Source: a virus
Virus record (IMG/VR): IMGVR_UViG_3300040751_005239
Coordinates: 1-47,662 of that record
DNA length: 47,662 nucleotides
Reading direction: 5' to 3' (one strand)
Made by a program: the position numbers and the translations under genes. Below are positions 8,081 to 36,833 of the stretch, in pieces. Below the pieces are notes generated by a model that saw only the letters and a program-made list of their open reading frames with translations, made no database searches and was not told where the DNA came from. Positions within the stretch are counted from its first letter, which is position 1; each line of letters opens with the position of its first letter.

Positions 8081-11000
8081 TTAACTTTTTTTAACAATTG
8101 CAGCATATTGACTTAAAAATAAATTACCTCTTGAGGGATCTCTAGGATGTGCCTTTAAGTAAATTTCATCATATAAATAACTTAATTTATGACGTTCTAA
8201 TACATGAGATTCATAAACTAAATTAATACCTAAAAAGTTTGTGTTTCTCGGTATTCTTTGATAAACTATTTCTGTGAATGTTGTATCTAGCCATCTAAAT
8301 ATTTCTCGATATCTATTTAAATCAATATCACTAATAAGATTTTCAAAGTATATTTTTCTTAATTCAATCAAATCAGGATAAGCAGAAGCAAAAACAAGAT
8401 TAGGTTTTCCTAATGCATTATCAAAAGCAGTAAAGTCTGAAAAAGCCCCTAAAATATTCTGATTTAATCCTTTCATTGCAGACATGTCCATTGAAAATCT
8501 TACATCGTCAAATACTTCTTCACTAGGACGTACTTCATTGATTGGTCCTATTTGAGCGTATTTATGATCGGGTAAAAGTGCAGTATCTTGCAAGCTTCGA
8601 ATTCTAACTTTAGTTTTTGCTGTATTTAAATCAAAATTAGGGGATAGCTCCTCATAAATTACGTACTCTGGATAAAATATATTTTTACTTGCTTCAAAAG
8701 CATATCCGGAAATATGTTTATTATTTTGAGAAAAATCAAATATTCTTATCTCGCCAGAAGAATCTGATGCTGATGTTGCTTGATCATGAGACGTTTGCAC
8801 TCTTAACCTTTGAAAGCTTCCTGTCTTAATTGTATTAAAATTATAATTTTGAATTGGATTTTTAACGCCCACAGAATTATGATTTTTTGCAAAAGATCTA
8901 AACTCGTCTAATGTAATCCCATAAGACCAAAAATTAATATTACTAACTTTGCCTGAGAAATATGTTTCTTTTTTATCACTTGTTTCAGAATTTAAAAATA
9001 AGCTTGTGTCATTAAAACTTTGTGATCCGATCATGACAAATGACCCAGACGAGTTATGTGTTGTTGAAACATTACTAAACAAACTATCACTGGCTTCTGA
9101 GAAGTAAGAAGATGTATAATAATTTTCTATCATTTCACCTGCATTATATTTTGCTGCTCTCAAGAAAATAGAACCGGTCAAGTTTGTATTTAAAACTTCA
9201 GAACATTCCCTACCAAAGCTAACTGCCCATGCATCATTGTCGTATAGATTTACTCCTGTTAATATCAATTGTGTTGTTGTGTTTAAGGAAGGACTATCAT
9301 TAATGCTCAAGATAAGATAATTAGAAGATTTATCTGTATGTAAATTTAAAATACAACCTTCAGCTGCGACGCTAGCGTGTGTTCCGGTTGTATGTAATCT
9401 TGCCAAACTTAAATCTTTTGTAATTCCGGAATCTATTACATAATTTGCCTGGTAAGTAAAAGATCCGCTTGTAAAAAGCCCGTCTGAGGTGTTATTGCTT
9501 ATTCCATGCGGTGAAAATAGTGCTTTGTTGACAAAAGTACCTCGAGGTTTTGGCGTTCCTATTTCTATTCTTGAACTAGACAAATAAGATGACATAATAT
9601 GCGGAGCAGTACTACTTTTACCTTGAGCATCTACAGACTCATTTTGATGATCAATTGATCCTGAGAAATTAATAAGATTTAAAATATCTTTTCTAATAGA
9701 CGTTGATTCTTCTAATGATTTTGTTTTTGCTCCTCCATATTCTCGTACATCAAATAAATTATCAGGCTCAACGCCAGCATTTCTAAAAACTGATTTTATG
9801 CTTTCAATTGTCCCTTTTTTCTTTTTTAAGAACGGAACATCTGACAATATTCTTCTCCAAATATTGTTTTGAATTGCATTTAAACTTTGAATTGCTTTTT
9901 CTGGGTTGTTAGATAAGTCAAAACCATCTAAAAATTGATCAAGTGTAGCAGATTCGAATATAAAAGGAAGAGTAATACCTAAATGCTTCGCAGATTTCTG
10001 AAGCAGAACATCCGGAACCGTATTTTTATCTTCATATGAAATTGAATTGATCAAAGAAAAACTATCAACAAATAATTTTAATTCATCAAAATATTTTGAC
10101 CACGTGTAAAGAAACTTAAGTAAGTTTTGAACACTTAAATTTGTTTGACTTTTTCGATCACTAATTGTCTTAATATTATCAAAAGTTTCATTAACCTTAC
10201 TTAAATTAGATTCAAAATTTTCAAAAACATTTCCGACGTCTAAATAATGTGGAGGAATTAATTTTGTTATAATATTAGGATTGCAATCATCATATTCAGA
10301 ACCGGTGGTAATTAAGCTATTGTAATAAGTTTCAACCGGTTCATAGTCAGGAAAAATAACAGGACACCTAGATAGGTTTTCAGAAATAACAGGTGTAAAA
10401 GATCCTGTTGCTCTATTTATTGTATAGTCAAAATTATATATTTTTGTTGTTAAACTATTTTGACTGCTGTCTAATGCAATGTCATTACCTGTATAATCGC
10501 CATAAGGTTCATTGAATCTAAAATGCAGTTTAAGATTATCTGTCGCATATAAAGTTTTGTCTTTTTCTTCCTGAATCGATTCTAATGTTTTTTCTTCATG
10601 AAAATACCTCAATTCGTCTAATGATCCGGAAAAACTTTGTTGGGGTGTAAATATTGTACTACTTGACAATCTTGCATTTTCACCTCTACCTATTGTCAAA
10701 TCAGCGGCTGAATAATTTAAAGAATTAAAAACGATACGATTACTAGAAGATACGACAGTACTCACCAAACTTGAAGTGTTATAGGTAATAAGTTTTGCTT
10801 CACCAAGTACATTGTCGTATACTGCAGAAACATGTTTGAATACACCTTTTTCAATGGAGGAGGTAACGTTCATATAGAAAGTTCCTGACGTGATTGCAAA
10901 TCCTATATCACATGTTGAAGTGCTATTTGAACTTGAAAGATATATTGTGGTATGATTCGCCAAACTGCTTCTTTTTTGGAAAATAATTTGATTATCATTT

Positions 11001-22751: not shown

Positions 22752-23597
22752 TTATTTTTCATTTTTTGTAACAGCACCGGGAATATCATACCAGTTTAAA
22801 TTTTTTCTTACTTGCTTGTTCTTTTCCCAAGCACCTTTCATGACTGTTGGATCTACACCTAATTCTTCTGCTTTCTTAATCATTGCATTGATATCTTTTG
22901 GAAAACATTTTCCTCCAAAACCAAAGTCACCATCATGGCCAGGAACATCAATATGTGAATTACCTATTCTAAAATCAGACATGAAACCATTTACTGCCGT
23001 TTCCCAATCACCTTCAATTGCTTTACAAATTTGGTGCATTTCATTCATAAAAGAAACTTTTGTTGCAAAAAAACAATTAGCCATATATTTGATTAGTTGT
23101 GCTGTTCCAAAATCTGTTTTAATTATTTTAGTATATGGAAATCTAATCCTATATAATTTTTCTACTACATTGTTTGCATTTGATTTGTTACTACCCAAAA
23201 CAATTCTAGCTGTGTTTATAAAATCCAATCTTGCTTTTCTCTCTGTTAAAAATTCTGGATTAAAAACAAAGCTCATCGAAGGATATATTTTTGCCAAATA
23301 CTCAGTTGTTCCAGGTACAACTGTTGATTTAATTACAACAACTTTTTCGTTGATATTTTCATGTTGAGAAAGTTCTTCTATTACTGATTCTACAATTGAA
23401 AGATCACACTCACCTGATTCAAACATTGGTGTAGGTACACAAACAAATATTACCTTTGAATTGCAAACTAATTCTTCCATAGAATGGGTTGACCGCTTTT
23501 GATCTTTGTCATGAACATATATGTCATCTGTTTGCAATATAAAACCATGGACAATTGCTTGTCCCACAAATCCGTTACCAATTATTCCAATTTTCAT
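22752..23597 (-). CDS. UDP-glucose/GDP-mannose dehydrogenase family, lacks C-terminal domain
   Basis: A 281-residue NAD-dependent sugar-nucleotide dehydrogenase-type protein. Features: G7-N-G-F-V-G12 dinucleotide motif; VCVPTPM (52-58); STVVPGTTE (91-99); FNPEFLTER (112-120); K170 and N174 in LIKYMAN; and the catalytic C231 in GFGGKCFPKD. Family members are about 390-450 residues and end in a second Rossmann domain that binds the UDP part. That domain is absent here: the protein stops about 50 residues after the active cysteine. It may be a natural short form or have a changed substrate. It is the last gene of the sugar island in transcription order. Confidence 0.75.
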   Translation of the reverse strand: MKIGIIGNGFVGQAIVHGFILQTDDIYVHDKDQKRSTHSMEELVCNSKVIFVCVPTPMFESGECDLSIVESVIEELSQHENINEKVVVIKSTVVPGTTEYLAKIYPSMSFVFNPEFLTERKARLDFINTARIVLGSNKSNANNVVEKLYRIRFPYTKIIKTDFGTAQLIKYMANCFFATKVSFMNEMHQICKAIEGDWETAVNGFMSDFRIGNSHIDVPGHDGDFGFGGKCFPKDINAMIKKAEELGVDPTVMKGAWEKNKQVRKNLNWYDIPGAVTKNEK

Positions 23598-23599
23598 TA

Positions 23600-24646
23600 T
23601 TATTCCTTAAAACAATTTTTAATTTGAAGTGCAAATCTTTTTGCTATTTTATCTATATTATAACTTTCATAAAGTAATTTTTGAGCATTTCTCGTTTTAA
23701 TTAATGACTTATCATAATCTTTCATAATATTAAATACAATATCTATTAAGTCTTCAAAATTAGGTTGGCATTTAAAATAAAAATTATCTGAGTCATAAAG
23801 ATTACAATATGATTCTAAAAAATCTGTGTCTGGTTTTATTAATATACCACCTAAGTATATTGTTTCATAATCTCGCCAATTATAACCTCCAAAACCCCAA
23901 GGCGACAGACAAACGCTTGAAGCTAAAAGCGTTTGCCAATATTGCGGTTGTGTAAATGGCTTTCCATATTGCGCAATTACTTTCTTGTTTTTAACATTAC
24001 CATATTCTAAAACCTTGTCATATGCATTCTTTCTATGTTCATTAAGTAATCTTATGATGTCATATCTATCATCATTTTTGTTCATATTGACATAATTTTT
24101 ATTTTTAGAATAATCAACAATTCCTGCGAAATTTAAATCATATTCTCTTTGATGATCAAAAAACCTACTAAAGTTTCTTACGTTTTTAAATCTAAAATTA
24201 TAAAAAGCAGGTAATGCACATTGTATTTTTCTTAATTCTTTGTCTGAGAATATATTTTCATATTCAGACTTTTTGTATTTGGTATTAATAAAATTTAAAT
24301 GATATCTTTTGTCCCCGGAAGTTTTTTTATTGTGGTTATCTTTATCTTTGAAATTTGTAATCTTAAAAAAACCTTTTACTATATCTTTTTTAATAGCATC
24401 TCTCATTTTTTCGCTAGCAATATTAGCTGAATCTGAGCGTTGGAGAATTATTATCGGTTTTTTAGAATCGTATGCTAAGTCTAAATCCGGATCTAATATA
24501 GTTTGATGAGTCATATAAACATCACAATTTTTTACTTCGTTAACAAATGTAATATCGTGATGATTTTTTAAAATAACTTGGCTGTCTTCTATAAATTTAA
24601 TTCTGTCGTCGTATCTTTTGTCTTTTGACTCTAAGTATATTTTCAT
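23600..24646 (-). CDS. Putative glycosyltransferase, exostosin / GT-B-like
   Basis: A 348-residue protein. The C-terminal part has a donor-site-like segment, LSPWGFGGYNWRDYETIYLG followed by GILIKP, which resembles the R-x-x-E-x-x-x-x-G pattern of exostosin and Glyco_trans_1_2 families. The N-terminus is poorly conserved, and the first half has NHHDITFVNEVKNCDVYMTH. It abuts the methyltransferase upstream and the dehydrogenase downstream. I am fairly sure it is a GT-B-like enzyme, and unsure of the family and substrate. Confidence 0.6.
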   Translation of the reverse strand: MKIYLESKDKRYDDRIKFIEDSQVILKNHHDITFVNEVKNCDVYMTHQTILDPDLDLAYDSKKPIIILQRSDSANIASEKMRDAIKKDIVKGFFKITNFKDKDNHNKKTSGDKRYHLNFINTKYKKSEYENIFSDKELRKIQCALPAFYNFRFKNVRNFSRFFDHQREYDLNFAGIVDYSKNKNYVNMNKNDDRYDIIRLLNEHRKNAYDKVLEYGNVKNKKVIAQYGKPFTQPQYWQTLLASSVCLSPWGFGGYNWRDYETIYLGGILIKPDTDFLESYCNLYDSDNFYFKCQPNFEDLIDIVFNIMKDYDKSLIKTRNAQKLLYESYNIDKIAKRFALQIKNCFKE

Positions 24647-25418: not shown

Positions 25419-26648
25419 TTATTTGAAAAAATTAATTTTGCTTTTAACTTGATTTGGTAATTTTAAAAAATGAGGTCCATTTTTTTCACTCTGCAGTTTT
25501 AAATTAGAAAAGAATATATCTTCATAACTGGTTAGTTCGCTATTTGATTTTGTATTGTCAATTAACAATCTTAACCCTAAAGGTTTTTCAAGTTTGTTAG
25601 AAAGACAATAAGTATCTAAAATATAACCATAAATTTCTTCATCTTTAACATTTTTACAAAGAGGAATCATATCTAATCCGCAGCCGCATGTGGTTGACAA
25701 TAAAAATAAATTTCTAAAATCTATTTTATTTTCTGAGAAATAATTTGAAAGTAAATTATCTTCTAGTACAGAATACATCAAAGAACAAAAACCTGTTGTT
25801 TTTATATTTTCATTCATTTCAATTTTTTTAAGTATGTCTGTATAAAATGTATGTATGAATTGGGTGCCCGGATCACCAAAAACAAATTTTATTTTTGATC
25901 TAGATCTTCCTAAGTTACCTATTATCTCTATTAATTCTACAACAGAAGCTTCTCCATGAAGATAAGGGAAAGGAGAAAATGATATATCAAATCCCATAAA
26001 TTTAGTTTTAGATAACTGACAGAATTCACTAATCTTTAATTGAAGTTTTTCTAGATCATTAATTAAAGATTTTTCAATTAGCGAAGATAATTTTTCAATT
26101 GAAAGTCTATTGTTTTTACTAACTAAATCTTTAACATAGTTAACAATTTCTAAACCTATGCTAAACTTTGTAATATCTTCATATCTTTCTTTTGATGAAA
26201 ACGAATAAGGAAAATAAGGAGTGTAATCTTTAATATTAAAACCTACTCCTAACTGGAAATTTGAATATCCTTCACCTTTATTAAGATTTGAAACACTTCT
26301 AATTAAGTTAGTAATATCAAATAGGTTTTCTGGCGTTACGTCATCGTCTTTGTTGATATTGACAGAGTAAAAAATATTTTTGTTTTTTGAAATGTCTGTT
26401 AATATTTCATTTTGATAATCAGATTTTTTGATTTTGTTAATTTCTATTTGCTTTGACATTCCCCATATTTTTTTATTTTTAAGTAAATTCAATCCCGCAT
26501 TGTTTTTAATTGAGCTAACCCTAAAACACCGAGGTTGTAAAAAAGATAAATTTTTAATAGCAAAATCAATGTCGTCAGCAAAAACTTTATCATTAACATT
26601 CTCTTGATAAAAAGTTACTGCTCTTATTGGGAGAAATATTTTGTTCAT
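25419..26648 (-). CDS. UPF0210/DUF711-family protein
   Basis: About 409 residues from the ATG at 26648. A longer reading from 26744 would overlap the ParB-like gene by about 95 bases and add a hydrophobic, low-complexity start, so I prefer 26648. Family features are KFMGFDISFSPFPYLHGEAS and, near the end, TCGCGLDMIPLCKNV followed by YILDTYCLSNKLEKPLGLRL. These match the DUF711 signature CGTGLDxxPLPGD and its following helix. The biochemical role of the family is unknown. Presence in a sugar/phospho-decoration cluster of a phage is unusual. Confidence 0.65.
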   Translation of the reverse strand: MNKIFLPIRAVTFYQENVNDKVFADDIDFAIKNLSFLQPRCFRVSSIKNNAGLNLLKNKKIWGMSKQIEINKIKKSDYQNEILTDISKNKNIFYSVNINKDDDVTPENLFDITNLIRSVSNLNKGEGYSNFQLGVGFNIKDYTPYFPYSFSSKERYEDITKFSIGLEIVNYVKDLVSKNNRLSIEKLSSLIEKSLINDLEKLQLKISEFCQLSKTKFMGFDISFSPFPYLHGEASVVELIEIIGNLGRSRSKIKFVFGDPGTQFIHTFYTDILKKIEMNENIKTTGFCSLMYSVLEDNLLSNYFSENKIDFRNLFLLSTTCGCGLDMIPLCKNVKDEEIYGYILDTYCLSNKLEKPLGLRLLIDNTKSNSELTSYEDIFFSNLKLQSEKNGPHFLKLPNQVKSKINFFK

Positions 26649-26649
26649 T

Positions 26650-27054
26650 TTACACCAGTTCTTCAATATTAACGTTAATATTTTCAGGTATTTCAAAATC
26701 AAAGTAATGTTGAACAGTTTTATAAGGATAAATTTTACCATCAATAGAGTTTTGAATTACTTTTTCATGGCTAATTTCTATATTTTCTCTAAGTGATTTT
26801 ATTTTTATCATTTTATAATCTTTAACAACAATCGCAGGAATCTTTTTAAGAAACATATCTTTTGAAATTTGAAATCTATGGTGACCATCAAGTACGTGAT
26901 ATAAATTATTTTTTTTATTAAAAAATACAACTATTGGTTTTTGCCAACTTTCTTTTATAATTTTATTTTTTAAATTTTCTACTCTTGCTTTGCTATGATC
27001 TTCTATCGGAATTATTTTTTTTGTTTCTATTTTTTGATATTTATTTTTGCCCAT
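26650..27054 (-). CDS. ParB-fold protein resembling free-serine kinases (SerK/SbnI)
   Basis: A 134-residue ParB/sulfiredoxin-superfamily protein. E18 in IIPIEDHSKARVENL, the D56-G-H-H-R60 motif, and the closing K112-T-x-x-H116 (IYPYKTVQHYF) match the form of SerK and SbnI, which make O-phosphoserine from free serine with ADP or ATP. A role as a DNA-partition ParB is unlikely: there is no helix-turn-helix and no ParA partner. The start is inside the end of the nucleotidyltransferase gene (28-base overlap), so the two are probably made together. A serine or hydroxyl-acid kinase feeding that enzyme is inference. Confidence 0.6.
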   Translation of the reverse strand: MGKNKYQKIETKKIIPIEDHSKARVENLKNKIIKESWQKPIVVFFNKKNNLYHVLDGHHRFQISKDMFLKKIPAIVVKDYKMIKIKSLRENIEISHEKVIQNSIDGKIYPYKTVQHYFDFEIPENINVNIEELV

Positions 27055-27746
27055 TCATATTCCTTTTTATTATTAACTGTAAATGATCTATTAAAATATA
27101 ACTTTTTAAAGTCATTATTACAATTTAAAAAAGAATTAAAATAGTAATAATTCATACCTGATTTTTCGATGATTTTTCTCTGTTCGTTCATGAGTTTCTT
27201 TGCTGTTTTTTTACTAATTAAAAAAACTCCTGTCATTCTATCATCATTTGAACTTTCTTCTCTTAAGTAAATTTTATTATTTTGATTTACGCAACCTATT
27301 CTAGATTTGTTTTGCTGACTGTACTTTTCAACAAATACATAATCTTTGTTTTCGTTTTGTTGAAATACTTCGTAAAATACTCTTGTATCTTCTTTACTGA
27401 CAATAACGTCACCTTCAGATATTAATACGTAATCAAAATCATGATCATCGTTAAACGCTTTTTGCAAACACAAAAAACAGCTATTAATGTTTTTATCATT
27501 TTTATAATTTTCATTTTTAACTGTTATTATAAAATCTGACTTTAAATAATCATATTTTTCGCTTTGAAAACCTGTAGATATATAGACTTTTTTTGCATTT
27601 AAGATGTTTTTTTGTTGTCTTATTAATCTTTCTATTATAGTTTCTTCATTGGTTATTTTTTTTAAACACTTACTGCTATTTTCTTTCATTCTAGAAGACT
27701 GACCTGCTGCTAAAATTATAGAAATTATCTTAATATTCTCTTGCAT
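27027..27746 (-). CDS. Nucleotidyltransferase, LicC/MobA-type
   Basis: A 239-residue GT-A-fold nucleotidyltransferase. LAAGQSSRM (12-20) with K30 is the NTP-binding loop; the NINSCFLCLQ segment (86-95) and EGDV with D113 recall CTP:phosphocholine or other CTP-using enzymes (LicC type). Shared neighbourhood and overlap with the SerK-like gene suggest that its sugar-like substrate could be a phosphorylated amino acid or amino alcohol, giving a CDP-linked donor. That is inference; a plain sugar-phosphate substrate is also possible. The AGAGG ribosome site supports the ATG at 27746. Confidence 0.65.
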   Translation of the reverse strand: MQENIKIISIILAAGQSSRMKENSSKCLKKITNEETIIERLIRQQKNILNAKKVYISTGFQSEKYDYLKSDFIITVKNENYKNDKNINSCFLCLQKAFNDDHDFDYVLISEGDVIVSKEDTRVFYEVFQQNENKDYVFVEKYSQQNKSRIGCVNQNNKIYLREESSNDDRMTGVFLISKKTAKKLMNEQRKIIEKSGMNYYYFNSFLNCNNDFKKLYFNRSFTVNNKKEYEWAKINIKK

Positions 27747-27756
27747 AAAACCTCTT

Positions 27757-29154
27757 TTAAAATTTGATAATACTACTTCTACCTGTATTTTTCAATATGT
27801 CTTTGCATTTTTTTCTAAAGAAGTCTCTAATTTCTTTAATTTCTTCCCAACCAGTTCCTACACTTAAATTTTCTGTTATTAGCGTTTTTTTGTTCTTTTT
27901 TATTTTTTCTTCAAGGTTTTTAAAATAATTTTTAGGATCTAAACAATATTTTTTATCTGTATGGTATCTCATTAATACATCTTTTTTGATGCCGTATCTT
28001 TTTCTTGCATTATCTGAATATTCTTTATCAAAGTTTGCAAGATTTATTTTTTCACTTTTATCATAGTACTTATCAAAAAGCATTTCTTGAAAATCATCAG
28101 AGTTTCCGTGCATTCCCCATGGTTGATAAATATATTTGTATCTTTCTGTAACTGCAGCTATTTTTGAAAAAGAATTCTTTTCCAACTTACTTTTACTAAT
28201 CTGGCCCGGGTATAAGGTTTCTGAATATACTATTTCTTCTTTTTTAATTTTTCTTTTTGCAACTAGATCTCTTATGTTTCGCATAGAAAAAATATGATTA
28301 ACTATACTTGGATTAGAACCTGCAGGTGAATTCAGATCTCCATTTTCATCTAGGCAAAACGAAGATATTAAAGGCACGTCAATAATTTCTTGAGTCAAGT
28401 GAAATCCATAATCTTTCATTCCGTACTCACCTTGAAATGTTCCATGATCAGAAGCAAAGATTATTTCTGGTGCATCGCTATTTTTTAGGTGACCAGTTTC
28501 GTCTAATATTTCACCAATGACATCATCTACAATGCAGTTCCAAACATCATCTCTTGTTATTCTTTGCTGTCCTGCATAATCTAAATATTTTAAAAGAGGA
28601 TCGCCTACTGTGTTGTTTGTAATGTCTAGTTCTTTGTAAAAACCGTGTATTTTCATCCAGACGAAACAAGGTTTTCCTTTTTTTCTTGCTGCGTCTATAA
28701 TTTTCAAACTATGTTTTAAGTGTGTTTTTCGACTATTGTTCGGATTAATATCCCAATCATCTATTAAATGTATATTAATTCCTTTCTTTCCCCATATTCC
28801 TGCTGTTTGTTTGTATGTCTCAAAATACTTACCAGGTTTATTGACAAAAATTAAGTTTACATCATAGCCTTTTTCTAATAAGTCTGTGAACATATTACTA
28901 GAAGACTTAATTTGTGTTTCATAAAGTCTTTGTTTGAAAGGTATATTGCTTTCATCGTGTAATTCCCACGAATATAAACCTGTCCATTCACAGCTATGAC
29001 ACATGAGCGTTGAGGCAGCAGGAGCGATCGCTTGTTTGAACAAAGTACCGCTTCTTGCTATTTTTTCAATATTTGGATATATGTTATATCCTCCGTAGAG
29101 GCTCATCCTTCCTGAGTACATGCGATCTGTTGCTATATAAATAATGTCTTTCAT
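27757..29154 (-). CDS. Alkaline-phosphatase-superfamily enzyme with Thr nucleophile
   Basis: A soluble 465-residue protein starting at the ATG at 29154, after AAGGAT. A longer start at 29220 would overlap the upstream gene, so I reject it. The fold signature is clear: TDRMYSGRMSLYGGY, PNIEKIARSGTLFKQAIAP, then SDHGTFQGEYGMKDYGFH followed by IIDVPLI. At the nucleophile position sulfatases have C or S in a C-x-P-S-R motif; here it is T49 (ASTLMCHSCEWTG), and the arginine is missing. That excludes a formylglycine sulfatase and points to a phosphotransferase or phosphodiesterase. No membrane segment or signal peptide is seen, so it is probably cytoplasmic. Confidence 0.65.
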   Translation of the reverse strand: MKDIIYIATDRMYSGRMSLYGGYNIYPNIEKIARSGTLFKQAIAPAASTLMCHSCEWTGLYSWELHDESNIPFKQRLYETQIKSSSNMFTDLLEKGYDVNLIFVNKPGKYFETYKQTAGIWGKKGINIHLIDDWDINPNNSRKTHLKHSLKIIDAARKKGKPCFVWMKIHGFYKELDITNNTVGDPLLKYLDYAGQQRITRDDVWNCIVDDVIGEILDETGHLKNSDAPEIIFASDHGTFQGEYGMKDYGFHLTQEIIDVPLISSFCLDENGDLNSPAGSNPSIVNHIFSMRNIRDLVAKRKIKKEEIVYSETLYPGQISKSKLEKNSFSKIAAVTERYKYIYQPWGMHGNSDDFQEMLFDKYYDKSEKINLANFDKEYSDNARKRYGIKKDVLMRYHTDKKYCLDPKNYFKNLEEKIKKNKKTLITENLSVGTGWEEIKEIRDFFRKKCKDILKNTGRSSIIKF

Positions 29155-29165
29155 TTTAATCCTTT

Positions 29166-29858
29166 TTAAGGTTTTAATCTTAATGCTCTTATGTCTCCAT
29201 GCCATTGACTTCTTCCCCAAGGCCTGTCTAGATAGTAGCCTAAATCATCGAACATATTTAACTCTTTAAGAAACTTACATTGTATCCTATGCTGGTGACC
29301 TGCTACACCGTCGATTTGTTCAGTCCAGCAAGATAAATTATTTTCCATCTTGTCATAAACTTTGCAAAATTCACTTAGCAAAAAAGAATTTCCGATATAG
29401 AACAAATCATTTATCTTAGAATCTCTTTTAGGTCCTGGGACATACATTCGATTGTGTTCAATATCATTAAAATTAACATCCTTAAACCAAGCAATGTCAT
29501 GCCTAGTTAATAAAACATAATCATATTTAAAATTTTTACTTTTTTCTTTGAGGCACAAGAGGTTAATTGCGCTTTTCATTGAAAACATTTTACTTTTAGC
29601 ATTAAATTCCTTTTTTTCTCTGGCAGAGAATTCTTTTTGTTTTTCAACTTTAACAATGCATTCCTTGACGATCTTTACTGTTTTTTCTTTTATTTTTTTA
29701 GTTACTTCTTCTTTTTCGCTGTCGTTTTTAACCCATGTATGAAAAAACATATCAATTTCAACGTCTTTGTTGATTTTAATTGCACTCATTAAAGAATCTA
29801 TAGACTCATCAAACCAATCAGTCAAATATCCGTAAAAGCATATTCCTATTTTTTTCAT
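29166..29858 (-). CDS. Glycosyltransferase-like protein, GT-A-type (putative)
   Basis: A 230-residue protein with features I associate with a group of capsular and phage proteins of unknown donor: IGICFYGYLTDW at the start, FFHTW (39-43) and KYDYVLLTRHDIAWF (111-125). The last acts like a GT-A metal-site strand, with D121 as candidate metal ligand. The C-terminal half is loop-rich with H and W residues (PWGRSQWHGDIRALRL). Near the AP-superfamily enzyme and radical SAM gene. Moderate to low certainty. Confidence 0.5.
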   Translation of the reverse strand: MKKIGICFYGYLTDWFDESIDSLMSAIKINKDVEIDMFFHTWVKNDSEKEEVTKKIKEKTVKIVKECIVKVEKQKEFSAREKKEFNAKSKMFSMKSAINLLCLKEKSKNFKYDYVLLTRHDIAWFKDVNFNDIEHNRMYVPGPKRDSKINDLFYIGNSFLLSEFCKVYDKMENNLSCWTEQIDGVAGHQHRIQCKFLKELNMFDDLGYYLDRPWGRSQWHGDIRALRLKP

Positions 29859-29867
29859 TTTTAACCT

Positions 29868-31016
29868 CTATAACGTTTCATCTAGGTGCGACATTGAATT
29901 TACGCATTTGTTGCAAACATCGTCTTTGTAATATTCGTTTTTAGAATGTATCTCTCTATAAAATTTCATTTCGTTGCCATTCCAAATTTCTTGAATCGTA
30001 CCTGTTATTAATTTTGCTTTTTTTGATTTATCTACCAAGCCTATGTTTTCAACGCTAGAATATGTTACATCTTTGCTTGTTTTTAATATACCAACAGGTA
30101 TTTCAGCACCATAAAAAGAACAGCAAGGTAAAACAGTACCGTCATACCTTACAGACAGATGAACGAATGGTTGTGCGCACTTAAATCTTTTGTTTGTTTT
30201 TTTACTGATAGATGTTTCTTTTCCGTAATCTTCTGTTATACCTACTAAATCTTGAATTCCAATTCCATCGACTTTGTCTTTCCAGTAATTAATGAAATCT
30301 TCAAGTTCATGTTTATTTGTTTTTGTTTTGACGAAATTAACTCTCACTGTTGGTAATTCTTTTCCCATACTATTTCTTAGCTGGATAAAATTTTTAACAT
30401 TTTGTATTGTTTTGCTGAATTCGCCACCCAGTCTTATTTTATCATAAGTTTCTTTTGTGTTTGCATCTATGGATATTTGAAGCCTATCTAATCCTGAATT
30501 TATTATTTCTTTTGATATTTTTTCTGTCAAAAGTGAACCATTTGTGCTAAAATAAGTATCAATAATTCCTCTTTTCTTAGCATACTTTATAAATTTTACA
30601 ATGTCTTTCCTGATCAAAGGTTCATTAATGTAATTAAATCTTACGCACTTCAAACCTTTTTTAACACTAATGTCTATTACTTCTTTAAAAACTTCAAAAT
30701 CAAACCAAGTTGATTTTCCTTTACCTGCTGTGTTTTCAGCGCTCCATGTGCACATAGGGCACCTGAAATTGCATGAATAATTAAGTTCAAAATCAATTTG
30801 TATTGGATAATTTGTCTTTTTAAGGTTTTTAGAAATGTCAGCGTATTCTTTTCTATATTTCTTATATTTGTATCTATCGACGTAACTTAAATTTCTTAAA
30901 ATTATATTTTCAATATTTTTTTTATTAATCTGCGTTGTTATTTCATTTTCATTTTTTGTTGTCAATAAAAACATTGATAAATTTTTTTTAATACTTTGAA
31001 TTATTCTTTTAATCAT
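29868..31016 (-). CDS. Radical SAM protein with SPASM-type C-terminus
   Basis: A 382-residue radical SAM enzyme. C82-x3-C86-x2-C89 in YSCNFRCPMCTW binds the SAM-cleaving [4Fe-4S] cluster; the strand after it and the TNGSLL segment (158-163) are typical. C280, C298-C299, C368 and C371 form a SPASM-like set for auxiliary clusters. Such enzymes modify peptides or sugars by radical chemistry. The substrate is unknown here. The ferredoxin encoded at 21223-21459 could be an electron donor, though it is 8 kb away. Clustered with glycosyltransferases and methyltransferases. Confidence 0.75.
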   Translation of the reverse strand: MIKRIIQSIKKNLSMFLLTTKNENEITTQINKKNIENIILRNLSYVDRYKYKKYRKEYADISKNLKKTNYPIQIDFELNYSCNFRCPMCTWSAENTAGKGKSTWFDFEVFKEVIDISVKKGLKCVRFNYINEPLIRKDIVKFIKYAKKRGIIDTYFSTNGSLLTEKISKEIINSGLDRLQISIDANTKETYDKIRLGGEFSKTIQNVKNFIQLRNSMGKELPTVRVNFVKTKTNKHELEDFINYWKDKVDGIGIQDLVGITEDYGKETSISKKTNKRFKCAQPFVHLSVRYDGTVLPCCSFYGAEIPVGILKTSKDVTYSSVENIGLVDKSKKAKLITGTIQEIWNGNEMKFYREIHSKNEYYKDDVCNKCVNSMSHLDETL

Positions 31017-31039
31017 TTTCTGAAATTTCCTTTAAATAG

Positions 31040-31792
31040 CTATTTAGTTACTTCTAAATATAAGCTAGCGTGTGGATTTGTATCAGTCCATTTAACTTGG
31101 TTGTAAATATTGTTCATACTTTTTGAATTAACTTCAACAATACTTGAAAATCCTACATTGTTAATTAACATTTCTTCAAATTTTTCAATATTCCAAAAAT
31201 TTATATGTTGCAATGTTGTTTTTTTAGGAAAGTTTTTTTTAATTTCATAACATTTTTCATGTAATATTTTGCAAACTTCTTTGGTATTTTTCGTATATAG
31301 CATGTCTTTAATTTCTGATTCGCTCATTTTTAACTGTCTAATAGGAGGACCCTCATACCAATCTTTACTAACCCTATCAGAAAAATGATAATTACTAAAC
31401 CAGTTCAATAAAGCATTCTGTGCCGTCGGTTTTATGTTGTATTTTTCCCAACAATTATATTTTTTTCTAATGCCCCTATATTGTCTCAAGGGAGGACTTT
31501 TCCACATCGGATGCTTTTCGATAAAACACTTGTGAAGTTTTTCAAAGTCTGGTACAATTATTGTAAATACACTTCCTTTTTTAAGTACGCGATAAGTTTC
31601 TTTAAAAATATTCATAGATACTTTATCATCTATATGTTCAAAAAAATGTGAAGAATATGCAATATCAAATTGATTGTCTTCATAAGCAAACGATGAATTC
31701 TCATTCAATACATGACCTCGGACAGCATCTATTCCTACCCATCCCTTTGGACAATTCCACTCTTTGCCGCAGCCTAAATTAATCCCTAACAT
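31040..31792 (-). CDS. Class I SAM-dependent methyltransferase
   Basis: A 250-residue protein. The start is MLGINLGCGKEWNCPKGWVG, a motif I (L-x-x-G-C-G) with the following acidic residue in VGIDAVRG. The classic strand FDIAYSSHFFEHIDD (63-77 or so) and the VLKKGSVFTIIVPD segment complete the Methyltransf_11 pattern. The reading frame is also open from TTG at 31798, overlapping the transketolase stop as TTGA. I prefer the ATG at 31792, as motif I begins right after it. Probable small-molecule or glycan substrate. Confidence 0.7.
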   Translation of the reverse strand: MLGINLGCGKEWNCPKGWVGIDAVRGHVLNENSSFAYEDNQFDIAYSSHFFEHIDDKVSMNIFKETYRVLKKGSVFTIIVPDFEKLHKCFIEKHPMWKSPPLRQYRGIRKKYNCWEKYNIKPTAQNALLNWFSNYHFSDRVSKDWYEGPPIRQLKMSESEIKDMLYTKNTKEVCKILHEKCYEIKKNFPKKTTLQHINFWNIEKFEEMLINNVGFSSIVEVNSKSMNNIYNQVKWTDTNPHASLYLEVTK

Positions 31793-31794
31793 TG

Positions 31795-32724
31795 TCAAAT
31801 AACTTCTGTAATTGTTTTGAATATACCTTTAGCATTCAAATTGTATTTCTCATATAAGTCTTTAGGCGTACCGGATTCTGGGAAGACGTCGTTCAAGCCA
31901 ATTCTTTTAACTCGCTTAGGAGAATGTTCACTAAGAGTTTCAGATACTATCGATCCTAATCCACCTACAATAGTATGATCCTCAACTGTTACAACCAGTT
32001 CAGAATTTTTTGTGTATTTAATTAAACCCTCTGTATCAAACGGCTTTAAAGTGTGGGCATTAATAATGTTAACTTTTTTGCTTTTTTGTTTTTCAATCAT
32101 TTCTGCTGCTTTAATTACGTCTGTTAAAACACAACCAGAAACAATTATTGTTATGTCTGGTTCATCACATTGTTTAACAATTTGCAACTTTCCTAACTCT
32201 ATGTTTGAATTTTGCGTAAAAATCTCATCAACAGGTTGCCTTCCTAGTCTAAGGTAAGAAGGACCAGGTTGTTTTATTATTAATTTAAGCATATCTCTTG
32301 TTTGATTATATGTGGCCGGTTGATACACTTTCATGTTAGGTAATGATCTCATTAGCGATATATCTTCTAATCCCATTTGAGTAACGCCATCTTTACCTAT
32401 CGCCATACCTGAGTGAGTACCTACTAAAAGCATTGATGCATCAGAATAGCATGCAGAAACTCTTATTACATCATATTTGCCTGTCAAAAAAGAAGCAAAA
32501 GAAGAAAAAACAGGATAGAAGCCATTCTCAGAAAGACCTGACGCTATTCCGATCGCATTACATTCTGCGATTCCACATTCAAAAAATCTTTCAGGAAATT
32601 TTTCTAGAAATTTAGTAGTCCTAGTAGCTTTTGATAAGTCAGCACTCAAAACAATTAAATTTTTTTCATCTTTCCCCAAACAAACTAATTCATCTCCGAA
32701 ACCGTCTCTTGTTGCTAAACTCAT
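31795..32724 (-). CDS. Transketolase, C-terminal subunit
   Basis: A 309-residue protein with the pyrimidine-binding and C-terminal domains of transketolase. E54 in ECGIAECNAIGIASGL is the glutamate that activates thiamine diphosphate. The segment YLRLGRQPVDEIF and the C-terminal domain (TIIVSGCVLTDVIKAAEMIE) are as in split transketolases. It begins inside the stop of the N-terminal subunit gene (ATGA overlap), so the two halves are made coupled. Two-subunit transketolases are known in archaea and some bacteria, usually with carbohydrate clusters. Together they should move C2 units to make sedoheptulose 7-phosphate or a related ketose. Confidence 0.85.
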   Translation of the reverse strand: MSLATRDGFGDELVCLGKDEKNLIVLSADLSKATRTTKFLEKFPERFFECGIAECNAIGIASGLSENGFYPVFSSFASFLTGKYDVIRVSACYSDASMLLVGTHSGMAIGKDGVTQMGLEDISLMRSLPNMKVYQPATYNQTRDMLKLIIKQPGPSYLRLGRQPVDEIFTQNSNIELGKLQIVKQCDEPDITIIVSGCVLTDVIKAAEMIEKQKSKKVNIINAHTLKPFDTEGLIKYTKNSELVVTVEDHTIVGGLGSIVSETLSEHSPKRVKRIGLNDVFPESGTPKDLYEKYNLNAKGIFKTITEVI

Positions 32725-33491
32725 TTTAACTCCTTCAGTGCCAAATCGTATTCTTTTTTGTTAGGCGCTTTTGCATGCCAAGAAGGTGTCTCCATAAAAG
32801 ACACACCTTTTCCTTTGACTGTTTTTGCAATAATACATGTCGGCTTTTTACTTTTAAAACATGTTAATGTTTTTTCAACTTCTTTGTAGTCGTTTCCATC
32901 AATTTCAATCACTTCCCAACCAAAAGATAATATTTTTTCAGTTAAACTTTTACCAATATCCAAGCTTAATACATCTTTTGTATATCCATCGTTTTGAGCT
33001 CCATTTTTATCAATGATCAAACACAGATTATTTAGCTTGAATTTAGGTGCTAACATTATCGATTCCCAAATTTGACCTTCTTGCATTTCTCCATCCCCAA
33101 CAATACAAAAAACTTTATTTTTTTCTTGCTTAATTGAATGTGCTAAGGCATGGCCAATTGCGATGCTTAAACCTTGCCCTAGTGAACCGGTTGTAGCAAC
33201 AACATTTTTAAGCCTAACCTTGTCAGGATGACCCTGGAGTTTAGAATTAATTTTTCTAAAAGACAATAATTCTTTTTCACTAATTACACCTGACAAGTGT
33301 AGAGCTGCATATAAGGCAGGTGCAGCATGCCCCTTTGATAAAATTAGCTTGTCTAATTCTCCAGATTTTAAATCAAAGTTGTTGTATAGACATGCTACAA
33401 TTTCAGCTATCGAAAAAGATCCACCTACATGTCCGGACTGTGCTTCTAGCAACATTTTAAGTATTGTTTTTCTAATTTCATTTGGCGTCAT
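32721..33491 (-). CDS. Transketolase, N-terminal (TPP-binding) subunit
   Basis: A 256-residue protein equal to the first domain of transketolase. G20-H-V-G-G24 and SKGHAAPALYAAL lie in the active site; G132-D-G-E-M-Q-E-G139 to N163 is the thiamine-diphosphate/Mg motif. The next gene supplies the other half, with an ATGA overlap. Nearly all full-length features are present, so this is an active enzyme half, not a remnant. Its neighbours are the GmhA-like isomerase and the AroE-like protein, which fits a role in a heptose-type or ketose-derived sugar pathway. Confidence 0.87.
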   Translation of the reverse strand: MTPNEIRKTILKMLLEAQSGHVGGSFSIAEIVACLYNNFDLKSGELDKLILSKGHAAPALYAALHLSGVISEKELLSFRKINSKLQGHPDKVRLKNVVATTGSLGQGLSIAIGHALAHSIKQEKNKVFCIVGDGEMQEGQIWESIMLAPKFKLNNLCLIIDKNGAQNDGYTKDVLSLDIGKSLTEKILSFGWEVIEIDGNDYKEVEKTLTCFKSKKPTCIIAKTVKGKGVSFMETPSWHAKAPNKKEYDLALKELK

Positions 33492-33506
33492 TAGCGCAAT
33501 CTCCTT

Positions 33507-34136
33507 TTATAAATCCTGGACTTTCTTTTTAAAAATACCAGTTACAATATGAGTAATTTTTGATAAGCAGTCTTCAAAATGAAAATTATTGTTATTTTTA
33601 CCTGTCTGGCCTGGAAAGTTAGAATTACCAGTAATTTCAATAATCAGATCTGAATGTTGTGCGCATTTTCCTTTTTTGTTTTTTGTCAATAAAACAGTTT
33701 TCATATTTCTTGCTTTTGAAACTTTAAAGGATTCTAAAATATTTTTAGAATTTCCTGATCCTGAAAAACCTATTACTACATCATTTTCTCTTCCGTGCAC
33801 CTCTAATTGACCACTAAAAATATGATCTGGGCCTAAATCGTTCATTAATCCTGTTATTGAAGTATTTGATACGCATAGATCGATCACCCTAAGTCTTTTA
33901 TTTGATTTAAATTTTTTTGACTTATCTTCGCATACAAACGGATGAAGCGAAAGATCTGATACTAAATTACCTACAAAACCCGCATTGCCTCCATTGCCGC
34001 AAGCAAAAATACAATTGTCGTGCTGGTAAGCATCCCAGATAAAACTAATTAATTTGTCTACACTAATTTCATCAATGTTGTCAAATACGTTTTTTGATTC
34101 TTCTTTATATAATTTTATTAAGTCAATGTTTTTCAT
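33507..34136 (-). CDS. SIS-domain phosphosugar isomerase, GmhA-type
   Basis: A 209-residue protein of the sedoheptulose-7-phosphate isomerase family. G47-N-G-G50 and the S125-G-S-G-N-S130 loop bind phosphate; TSITGLMNDLGPDHIFSGQL and GRENDVVIGFSGSGNS are close to GmhA. Catalytic candidates are E188 and H196 in HFEDCLSKITHIV. One family glutamate (E65 in E. coli) aligns with D61 here, so substrate details may differ. The reaction expected is sedoheptulose 7-phosphate to D-glycero-D-manno-heptose 7-phosphate, the first step of ADP- or GDP-heptose synthesis. The adjacent transketolase supplies the substrate. Confidence 0.75.
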   Translation of the reverse strand: MKNIDLIKLYKEESKNVFDNIDEISVDKLISFIWDAYQHDNCIFACGNGGNAGFVGNLVSDLSLHPFVCEDKSKKFKSNKRLRVIDLCVSNTSITGLMNDLGPDHIFSGQLEVHGRENDVVIGFSGSGNSKNILESFKVSKARNMKTVLLTKNKKGKCAQHSDLIIEITGNSNFPGQTGKNNNNFHFEDCLSKITHIVTGIFKKKVQDL

Positions 34137-34146
34137 TTTTTTCCTT

Positions 34147-34824
34147 TTATTTTTTAATAATATTATCTAAGTTTTTTAAAATGTACATTGTAGGAAAGTC
34201 TTTTTTAGTATAAAGATTAAATTGTTTTGCAGCTTGAAGAATTGCTAATTCTTTTCCAGTGTCAGTATTTGTGTCGCAGTCAACGTATACAATTTCCTTG
34301 TTAAATTTTAAACCTTTTACTGGAGTACAATTAAAGATTAAACCGGATTTGATTTTTTTAATTTCTTCCCAGTTTTCTCTAGTATAAATTTTTATTTCTT
34401 TGAAGATTTTGTTTGCTGAGTATTGAACCGCTTTTGAAAAACCTCCATTGCCTAAAATATGAATTGTTTTAAAATTTCTGTACCTATTAATTACTTCAAA
34501 TGTTGAGTCACAGTCAGTATTGTATGCTATTAATTTCCCATTATCGTTAAGAATAGTGTTTGCTGCTCCAATGTCTTTAACTTCTTCGGATAATTCATCG
34601 ACATAATTTAAAACTTCTTCTTTGTAAGGCATTGTTATACTAACACCTCTTATATTTAAAGCTCGAGCGCCCTGAATTGCAGTTTTTAAATCTTTTGTGC
34701 TGAATGCTTTATAAAGAAAATTCATTTTTTCTTTTTCAAAAATATGATTATATATAGTTGTTCCAAAATTACCAGCTTTTTTTGCTAAAGAAATACAGAC
34801 TATTGTATCTTTATTTATTTTCAC
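34147..34824 (-). CDS. Shikimate dehydrogenase (AroE)-like oxidoreductase, divergent
   Basis: A 225-residue protein, shorter than the usual 270, starting at GTG 34824 behind AGAGG. Family features: SITMPYKEEV with catalytic K68, the GAANT turn (N89), NTDCD with D104, and the dinucleotide loop G125-N-G-G128. The S-x-S motif near the N-terminus that holds the shikimate carboxylate is lost (ISLAKKAGNFGTTIYNHIF), so the substrate is probably not shikimate. Placed between the isomerase and the nucleotidyltransferase-kinase, it may oxidise or reduce a sugar-derived intermediate. That is inference. Confidence 0.65.
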   Translation of the reverse strand: MKINKDTIVCISLAKKAGNFGTTIYNHIFEKEKMNFLYKAFSTKDLKTAIQGARALNIRGVSITMPYKEEVLNYVDELSEEVKDIGAANTILNDNGKLIAYNTDCDSTFEVINRYRNFKTIHILGNGGFSKAVQYSANKIFKEIKIYTRENWEEIKKIKSGLIFNCTPVKGLKFNKEIVYVDCDTNTDTGKELAILQAAKQFNLYTKKDFPTMYILKNLDNIIKK

Positions 34825-36364
34825 TTAAAACCTCTGCGAGTAGTAACTTGCCTAACAAAAATAAAAATCTTCCATACTCTCCCTTATGAAAATTTTCATA
34901 AAGGCATGCGATGTTAAGGTAATTCAATATGCCTACTAGTTTTACTTGTTGCCATGATAATTTATTTTCTTTACAAAACTCTTCGAGTATTTGAAGATTT
35001 TGCAATAAATTACTTCTTATGGCATATTCAATTGATGCTTCGTTTTCTGATATTTGTACAGAATACAAGCCTTTCATGATGTAACTTCCGTTAATCAAAA
35101 GAGCGTGATATATCTTTCCTAAATCGTAATATGCATCACCGATTTCTATTGAATCTCCAAAAGATTCTCGCCAATCAATCGTATAAAACTTGTTTTCATT
35201 ATTACTAAATATAATGTTTTCAGGTTGCATATCTCCGTGGAAGTGAGATTGTTTTGCATCTTCGAATAAACGATCCCAAGATATAGTTTCAATCATTGAA
35301 TTAATCGAATTAACTTTTACACCATTGATTAATGATATCTTGTCTAAATTTTCATGTTTAAACTTTTTAATTCTTTGAATCGTTTTGCTTTCGTACATCT
35401 TGTAACAATTATTAATAAATTTTTTGTCATTTTCAATATGTTTTTGTAAAAAATTAGATTTGTAAAATTCTAAGAAATTTTTAAAAACTCTGTAATCTTT
35501 AAAATTTGATAATAATTCGCCTTCGATATAATCGTAGCAATACATGTTTTCATTAATTAAATCAACCTTAGGGGTTAATTCACCTAAAATAACTGATCGT
35601 TGATACCTCATTTTTGTTTTTGCTGCATTATCAAAATATTTAATGACTTTACCATTTTCAATAAATAGAGCTTCATTCGTTTTATTTGCAACAACTTCAT
35701 TTGGGAATTTTTTCCTTGTTAGTTCATAAGATTTATTATTTCCCGTGTCGTACCAGTTAAAATATTTTAATTCTATTTCTTTTAGCTTATCAAAACCAGA
35801 AATTACCTGGATTTCATTTTTGATTAATTGTGCTGACTCTAAAGATTTCCAAAATTTTTTATAATCATATATTCCAGCAATGCCTATGAATGCTGTACTT
35901 CCTTTTCCGTAATAAAATTTTTTAAACTTGTTGTTGTCAGAATCAACAAGACAATAATTTTCATAGTTTTCATCAATTTTAGATACACCTACCCAATTAT
36001 TATTAAAATTTTCAATTACATCGTCATTACCTAGGATTGTATCTACTGATGTAAAGACAAACGGGCAGTTTAAAAACCCTTTACAGCAAAGCAAACTGTA
36101 GCCTGGGCCAGATCCTACTTGATCATAATTGTCGACTTCTACAAAATTAAATTTTCTTTTTGGGTGTATTGCTTTCAAATATGACTTTATTTGATCTGCC
36201 TTGTACCCTAATGCAATTATAATTTCTGTATCTTCGCTTACCTTTTCAATTATTTTAGAAATAACAGGTTTGTTTTCTATAGGTAGAAGCGCCTTGTGCA
36301 GACCTACTATAGAATCATTTCTTGAACCTTTTCCGGCTGCGAGGATACATAATTTATGATTCAT
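34811..36364 (-). CDS. Bifunctional nucleotidyltransferase-kinase fusion
   Basis: A 517-residue two-domain protein from ATG 36364; a GTG 12 bases upstream is less likely. Domain 1 (about 1-225) is a GT-A nucleotidyltransferase with LAAGKGSRN (8-16), K24 and a metal-site segment SVDT (106-109). Domain 2 (about 240-517) is an aminoglycoside/choline-kinase-fold kinase: HGDMQPEN (376-383) is the catalytic loop and IDWRESFGD carries the metal Asp. Kinase plus nucleotidyltransferase activity would turn a hydroxyl sugar or alcohol into an NDP-linked donor. It overlaps the cupin stop (11 bases) and the AroE-like start (14 bases). Confidence 0.75.
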   Translation of the reverse strand: MNHKLCILAAGKGSRNDSIVGLHKALLPIENKPVISKIIEKVSEDTEIIIALGYKADQIKSYLKAIHPKRKFNFVEVDNYDQVGSGPGYSLLCCKGFLNCPFVFTSVDTILGNDDVIENFNNNWVGVSKIDENYENYCLVDSDNNKFKKFYYGKGSTAFIGIAGIYDYKKFWKSLESAQLIKNEIQVISGFDKLKEIELKYFNWYDTGNNKSYELTRKKFPNEVVANKTNEALFIENGKVIKYFDNAAKTKMRYQRSVILGELTPKVDLINENMYCYDYIEGELLSNFKDYRVFKNFLEFYKSNFLQKHIENDKKFINNCYKMYESKTIQRIKKFKHENLDKISLINGVKVNSINSMIETISWDRLFEDAKQSHFHGDMQPENIIFSNNENKFYTIDWRESFGDSIEIGDAYYDLGKIYHALLINGSYIMKGLYSVQISENEASIEYAIRSNLLQNLQILEEFCKENKLSWQQVKLVGILNYLNIACLYENFHKGEYGRFLFLLGKLLLAEVLSENK

Positions 36365-36833
36365 TTTTATGTTCACTCTCTATTTTACCAGATTTACGAT
36401 TAGCGTCATCTTGAAATCTCTCTACATCGTCTAAATGAGGTGTTGAAACTTCCACTGCTGAATAATCTGTCAATGCTATTACTCGATGCTTTCTTCCAAC
36501 AGGTACTACCCAACCTGTCCCAGGACCAAAAGTAAAAGATTCTAGCTCTCCTTTGTCATTTTCTAATAAAACTTCAGCTGTTCCTTCAAAAACATAGTTT
36601 GCTTCTACTTTTTTTTCATGACGCTGGAGTGAACTTCTATTACCTGCTTTCATGTGTATTAGTTTAAATGCATAAAATTCGTTCAATTCCATCCATTTTT
36701 CAAAACCCCATGGTTTATCAACTTTGTAATTGCTAAGTGATAGTACGTTTTCTTTTTTTCTTTCAATTGGTTCTTTATAATCTTGTAATGCTTTTTTAAT
36801 CCACGGATCTTTAATTTCATTATATTTCGACAT
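36354..36833 (-). CDS. Cupin, mannose-6-phosphate isomerase type II-like
   Basis: A 159-residue single-domain cupin. PWGFEKWM (41-48) followed by SSLQRHEKKVEANYVFEG gives metal ligand candidates Q70, H72 and E77; H116 and E128 complete the site. The pattern matches the isomerase domain of ManC, but without the nucleotidyltransferase part. It could isomerise or epimerise a phosphosugar, or act as a sugar dioxygenase-like cupin. It starts 14 bases inside the HAD gene end, and its stop overlaps the fusion gene start. Confidence 0.65.
   Translation of the reverse strand: MSKYNEIKDPWIKKALQDYKEPIERKKENVLSLSNYKVDKPWGFEKWMELNEFYAFKLIHMKAGNRSSLQRHEKKVEANYVFEGTAEVLLENDKGELESFTFGPGTGWVVPVGRKHRVIALTDYSAVEVSTPHLDDVERFQDDANRKSGKIESEHKNES

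Follow-up and report, generated by a model that had tools for sequence, protein, structure and literature searches.

What would a phage make with a short ParB-fold protein whose gene overlaps that of a nucleotidyltransferase? The question is raised by the 47,662-base IMG/VR virus record IMGVR_UViG_3300040751_005239, positions 1 to 47,662 (the window, meaning here the whole stretch of DNA analysed). In this record the two genes are closely packed on the minus strand with those for an alkaline phosphatase (AP)-superfamily enzyme and a DUF711/UPF0210 protein. All four genes of the block described in the initial annotation were found in place, but the block had been drawn one gene short, as a methyltransferase gene (25406-24648, minus strand) is part of the conserved set. 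The five genes probably constitute an operon-like cassette for producing and using a phospho-amino acid activated with cytidine diphosphate (CDP), intended for a phage-directed glycan; the probability of this reading is put at about 0.6.

A five-gene cassette in three phages

The order AP-superfamily enzyme, LicC-like nucleotidyltransferase, ParB-fold kinase, DUF711 protein and methyltransferase is identical in the window and in two further IMG/VR phage contigs, L079 (16 kb) and L081 (335 kb), with identities of 24–71% across the three. L079 was reached via the AP enzyme, and its products are 71% (AP enzyme), 54% (nucleotidyltransferase), 45% (kinase), 56% (DUF711) and 38% (methyltransferase) identical to those of the window. 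Its baseplate wedge homologue is 52% identical to that of the window, indicating that the two phages are related. L081, found by a profile-guided scan, has a cassette that is 24–41% identical (AP enzyme, 41%). It codes for sheath, portal and baseplate wedge proteins, and is a myovirus by PHROG scans; the window phage has myovirus baseplate genes that are kin to those of large aquatic phages. Terminase and sheath family searches of the three records found nothing.

The nucleotidyltransferase (27746-27027, minus strand) and kinase (27054-26650, minus strand) genes do overlap as had been noted, by 28 bases in the window and by 25 bases in L079. In L081, they are a single open reading frame (ORF) of 365 residues with both domains intact. 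In each of the three contigs, the cassette is then followed by a uridine diphosphate (UDP)-glucose dehydrogenase-like gene, and the surroundings in the window and L081 are glycosyltransferase and nucleotide-sugar regions. The upstream neighbours differ among the three, hence the cassette looks like a mobile unit. Its recurrence in three phages excludes chance and is the strongest evidence for the genes acting together.

Single-sequence IMG/VR scans with the kinase, DUF711 protein and nucleotidyltransferase gave no relatives, and the AP enzyme gave the first. As these scans are seeded by short exact peptides, they reach only close relatives, and distant members are missed. Among INPHARED phages, the window kinase, DUF711 protein and AP enzyme had no match, and the nucleotidyltransferase had one weak partial match only. 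The L081 proteins matched a kinase-like ORF in a Vibrio phage and a nucleotidyltransferase in a Cobetia phage, neither of them in such a cassette, and the L081 DUF711 protein gave partial matches in unannotated phage records. The cultured Vibrio phage Va2 encodes a 150-residue serine-kinase-like ParB protein (L083, 3365-3817; 70.8 bits), and the other cassette genes were not detected nearby. In Cobetia phage Carin-5 (L084, 10963-14674), gpsA and genes for a CTP (cytidine triphosphate) cytidylyltransferase and a glycerophosphodiester phosphodiesterase lie close together, a possible phage CDP-glycerol module.

The predicted kinase and its probable CTP-dependent partner

The ParB-fold protein (ParB_N PF02195, 2.8e-8) has 134 residues and includes E18, D56-G-H-H-R60 and K112-T-V-Q-H116, so that every element of the E18, DGHHR and K-T-x-x-H pattern of free-serine kinases reported initially is present. 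E18 aligns with E30 of SerK, the residue changed in two solved complexes, E30A and E30Q (5x0e, 5x0j). The K-T-x-x-H segment is shared with SerK, and SbnI lacks a clear match there. The catalytic Glu, the D-G-x-H-R loop (DGQHR in L081) and the C-terminal K-T-x-x-H are kept in all three phages. In an alignment that took in bacterial proteins of 130–160 residues, E18, W37, P40, D56, G57, H59, R60, P73, Y80, K112, T113 and H116 do not vary across 26 kinases, among them those encoded beside SbnA-like genes.

Archaeal SerK ranked first in single-sequence searches with the ParB-fold protein. As a non-circular test, 23 bacterial compact proteins, with no phage sequence among them, were made into a profile. 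Against it the three phage kinases reached 101.1, 87.1 and 82.2 bits along almost the whole model, versus at most 45 bits, in pieces, for other ParB-domain proteins. The AlphaFold model (predicted local distance difference test, pLDDT, 95.2) matched nine SerK/SbnI chains with Z of 14.0–19.4 across 131 of its 134 residues, compared with Z of 8.8 or less over 71–102 residues for other ParB-fold chains. By sequence and model, the protein is a compact free-serine-kinase-like enzyme. Three viral ParB matches were rejected as relatives, being alignable with the ParB-domain core only; in two of them this core lies inside proteins of 560–730 residues.

For the nucleotidyltransferase (NTP_transf_3, PF12804, 1.7e-10), the LicC-like pattern noted earlier was borne out, as LicC is its nearest solved structure by profile (1jyk, 1.8e-10), followed by PntC (6pd1, 1.8e-5). 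In a single-sequence PDB search, PntC 6pd1 was the sole match. The L-A-A-G-x-x-x-R loop and a downstream Lys are present, and the loop is invariant in the three phages; so are the candidate metal ligands D113 and E229, the alignment with 1jyk spanning profile positions 1–98 only. LicC makes CDP-choline, and PntC makes CMP-aminoethylphosphonate (PMC6697681). Given the likeness to both enzymes, the gene overlap and the fusion with the kinase, CDP-serine would be the simplest product. The coupling of the kinase to CTP that we infer from these sequence features is well supported.

The genes found beside bacterial relatives bear on the kinase product. SbnI makes O-phosphoserine, and SbnA consumes it. 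An SbnA-like (cysteine-synthase-family) gene is present, within the fetched stretch of up to 8 kb on each side, at 39 of 48 bacterial loci with a compact protein, and SbnB-like or IucA/C genes are often found there as well. Since most of the bacterial compact proteins have SbnA-like genes close by, O-phosphoserine is most likely the product of the phage kinase too. SerK of T. kodakarensis rejects threonine and homoserine (PMC5120207).

Relatives occur more widely. Compact serine-kinase-like proteins were detected in 119 of 200 Thermoproteota genomes (1e-6), the best being whole-model matches of 142–200 residues. Some Thermoproteota have fused ORFs of 440–464 residues in which a degenerate relative, its ParB-fold domain having lost DGHHR, precedes an apparent cysteine-synthase-type domain. 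A. tumefaciens pAt2 (L006, 794-8566) has together genes for phosphoenolpyruvate (PEP) mutase, a phosphocholine-cytidylyltransferase-family protein, a compact kinase, an ornithine cyclodeaminase and a Y4yA protein.

Later steps and competing explanations

The AP-superfamily enzyme (29154-27757, minus strand; PF00884, 4.5e-9, over the cut-off) is S1-sulfatase-like. However, T49-L-M-C-H replaces the formylglycine motif in all three phages, and the sulfatase motif C/S-x-P-x-R was not found in the enzyme of the window, L079 or L081. The Thr placed at the nucleophile position in the initial annotation is indeed there, as Thr49 (counted without gaps from the conserved T-G in alignments). The replaced motif and T49 argue against a sulfatase role, and the superfamily fits a candidate Thr-nucleophile phosphotransferase or phosphodiesterase. 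An AlphaFold model built from three sequences had pLDDT 37 and was discarded.

The DUF711 protein (26648-25419, minus strand; PF05167, 1.2e-37, 130 bits versus a cut-off of 25) is kept in all three cassettes. The ORF list gives its start as 26744 (TTG), but 26648 agrees with the gene junction and with the alignment of relatives. It has the fold of the UPF0210 protein SP0239 (2ha9; profile match 4.6e-20), and the phage subgroup includes an additional I-G-N-x-G-R-S-R segment. Ribonucleotide reductase and pyruvate formate-lyase are in the same ten-stranded barrel superfamily as DUF711 (PMC4390871). The literature on DUF711/UPF0210 assigns no function. The family was detected in 3 of 398 Pseudomonadota genomes, two of which were inspected and have no cassette genes adjoining, in none of 337 Alphaproteobacteria genomes, and in 67 of 251 Chloroflexota genomes, where the few neighbours viewed were uninformative. 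The class I methyltransferase-like protein, a weak Pfam match in the window and a clear one in L079 and L081, holds the same position in all three. It could N-methylate the amino acid, by analogy with the methyltransferase CD0243, which does so for the Type A glycan in C. difficile (PMC10714395).

In the pathway proposed, the ParB-fold kinase would, with good confidence, turn L-serine or a close analogue into O-phosphoserine, and the overlapping or fused LicC-like enzyme would probably then use CTP to form CDP-serine. What follows is more speculative. The AP enzyme might cut the pyrophosphate by means of its Thr nucleophile and move phosphoserine to a sugar, the methyltransferase might act on the amino acid (as in C. 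difficile Type A) or on the glycan, and the DUF711 protein might contribute a further, unspecified step. The end product would be a phosphoserine-type decoration of a glycan, which is taken to be phage-directed because the cassette is surrounded by a large region of glycosyltransferase and nucleotide-sugar genes. The full version, in which a transferable five-gene phage pathway makes CDP-serine with the ParB-fold kinase and a cytidylyltransferase joined to it in one lineage, and the AP-superfamily transferase and DUF711 protein place methylated phosphoserine on a phage-directed glycan, giving the first pathway for UPF0210/DUF711, is tentative, with the odds against it.

Several observations weigh against the glycan-decoration pathway. 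The PDB matches of the AP enzyme are sulfatases only, and the scan of the proteins showed no phosphotransferase of the LicD or TagF type; the AP enzyme is thus a candidate for the transfer step by elimination, and weakly so. In L081, an extra sulfotransferase-like gene (9320-10096) separates the gene for the AP enzyme from that for the fusion protein. Only three cassettes were found, all metagenomic. The ParB-fold protein has no counterpart of the residues that separate the two SerK stretches, and its best NCBIfam match, SerK NF053625 (5.7e-11), reached 42 bits against a cut-off of 380. The free-serine-kinase likeness claimed for it therefore stands by profile and predicted structure but not at the equivalog cut-off, so the protein is filed as compact serine-kinase-like and not as an archaeal SerK equivalog. 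The initial annotation had also suggested that the gene set be sought in bacterial loci; neither the set nor a bacterial kinase-nucleotidyltransferase cassette was found among limited genome samples, and either could still exist elsewhere.

The same logic might apply to another substrate: from threonine, N-methylserine, homoserine or serinol, the matching CDP derivative would form. This alternative is unlikely, though less so than the others. The phage kinases group in a single clade (92/95 support), separate and far from the siderophore-side proteins, which leaves room for a serine analogue, and the C. difficile Type A glycan is built with a threonine derivative (PMC10714395). Nevertheless, the twelve invariant positions extend to the kinases beside SbnA-like genes. 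Rather less probable is a small molecule or cofactor as the product (a siderophore-like or anti-host compound, or amino-acid supply) with no glycan decoration. Diaminopropionate/siderophore-type genes do adjoin most bacterial relatives, but SbnA-like, SbnB-like and IucA/C genes were not seen among the phage proteins scanned, and the sugar-related surroundings of the window and L081, together with the dehydrogenase-like gene adjoining in all three, point elsewhere.

A phosphonate pathway, in which the PntC-like enzyme would make CMP-2-aminoethylphosphonate, has in its favour that PntC 6pd1 is the only PDB match of the single nucleotidyltransferase sequence; it is very improbable, as LicC stands above PntC in the profile search, PEP mutase was not seen among the proteins scanned, and that route has no place for a free-serine kinase. 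Equally improbable is action of the kinase and nucleotidyltransferase on separate compounds, the latter taking an ordinary sugar phosphate: NTP_transf_3 substrates are varied and this member is divergent, but the overlap is conserved and one fusion retains both domains. The Pfam label ParB_N would suit a DNA-binding or CTP-switch ParB with unrelated neighbours, but this is the least probable reading of all, and a partition-protein identity was ruled out by the whole-length SerK/SbnI match, the L081 fusion and a size of 134 residues, too short for the canonical helix-turn-helix and C-terminal dimer domains, which were not found (Pfam gives ParB_N alone).

The glycan-type region around the window cassette lies on the minus strand in the middle of the record, at ~22.7–43.6 kb. 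Downstream, the methyltransferase gene is followed by a glycosyltransferase-like gene (23600..24646, minus strand; weak RXYLT1_C match), which has no counterpart between the methyltransferase and UDP-glucose dehydrogenase genes of L079 or L081, and then by the UDP-glucose/GDP-mannose dehydrogenase-like gene (22752..23597, minus strand). Upstream are glycan-type genes (29166..36376, minus strand) that are not in common with the L079 or L081 flanks: DUF7796-like, radical SAM/SPASM, methyltransferase, split transketolase, SIS, AroE-like and a nucleotidyltransferase-kinase fusion. The radical SAM/SPASM product (29868-31016) has tungsten-cofactor oxidoreductase maturases as its closest models (8.5e-31, under the cut-off). 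The split transketolase pair and the SIS (GmhA-like) gene (31795-33491 and 33507-34136) have the look of a route to an unusual sugar phosphate. The second fusion (34811-36376; NTP_transf_3 and weak APH), which adjoins the AroE-like gene, may be another phosphorylate-and-activate module of the same phage.

Relationship to known pathways

If the proposed pathway is correct, viral genes would encode the synthesis of a CDP-amino acid and of a glycan bearing a phospho-amino acid. The widespread DUF711 family, whose phage members differ from 2ha9 (SP0239) in lying in a kinase/nucleotidyltransferase cassette, would gain a testable pathway context. The pathway would also give ParB-fold serine kinases a second trade beyond cysteine and siderophore synthesis, and L081 offers a ready kinase-cytidylyltransferase fusion for assay.

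The phage kinase resembles SerK (TK0378) and SbnI in its whole-length fold, catalytic Glu and DGHHR loop, with K-T-x-x-H common to SerK, but has only 134 residues and is encoded beside a nucleotidyltransferase instead of cysteine or siderophore genes. In the Campylobacter methyl phosphoramidate route, a glutamine kinase is followed by a CTP:phosphoglutamine cytidylyltransferase; the order of amino-acid kinase and cytidylyltransferase is shared, whereas the kinase family and the later steps differ. The Lic phosphocholine pathway (LicA/LicC/LicD) and PntC tailoring (PMC6697681) likewise proceed from a kinase through CTP activation to glycan transfer, but in the phage a ParB-fold kinase stands for LicA, and a DUF711 protein and an AP-superfamily enzyme are present with no LicD seen.

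A parallel in product is the Type A flagellin glycan of C. difficile 630 (CD0240-CD0244), with a sugar-linked phospho-amino acid, a proposed CDP-threonine and a clustered methyltransferase (PMC10714395). That glycan carries phospho-N-methylthreonine, and the same paper cites both CDP-serine and CDP-glutamine as compounds that exist (PMC10714395). Its phosphate source is PSP/ThrH-like (phosphoserine:threonine phosphotransferase), its transferase is TagF-like, and it is without DUF711; PSP-like and TagF-like proteins are absent from the phage cassette proteins scanned. Phospho-amino-acid decoration of a glycan, at first thought to be new, is therefore known in bacteria, and the novelty would lie in the phage setting and the enzyme set. 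Besides that setting, the new features here are a ParB-fold kinase in this proposed role, the joining of kinase and cytidylyltransferase in one protein, and the pairing with DUF711.

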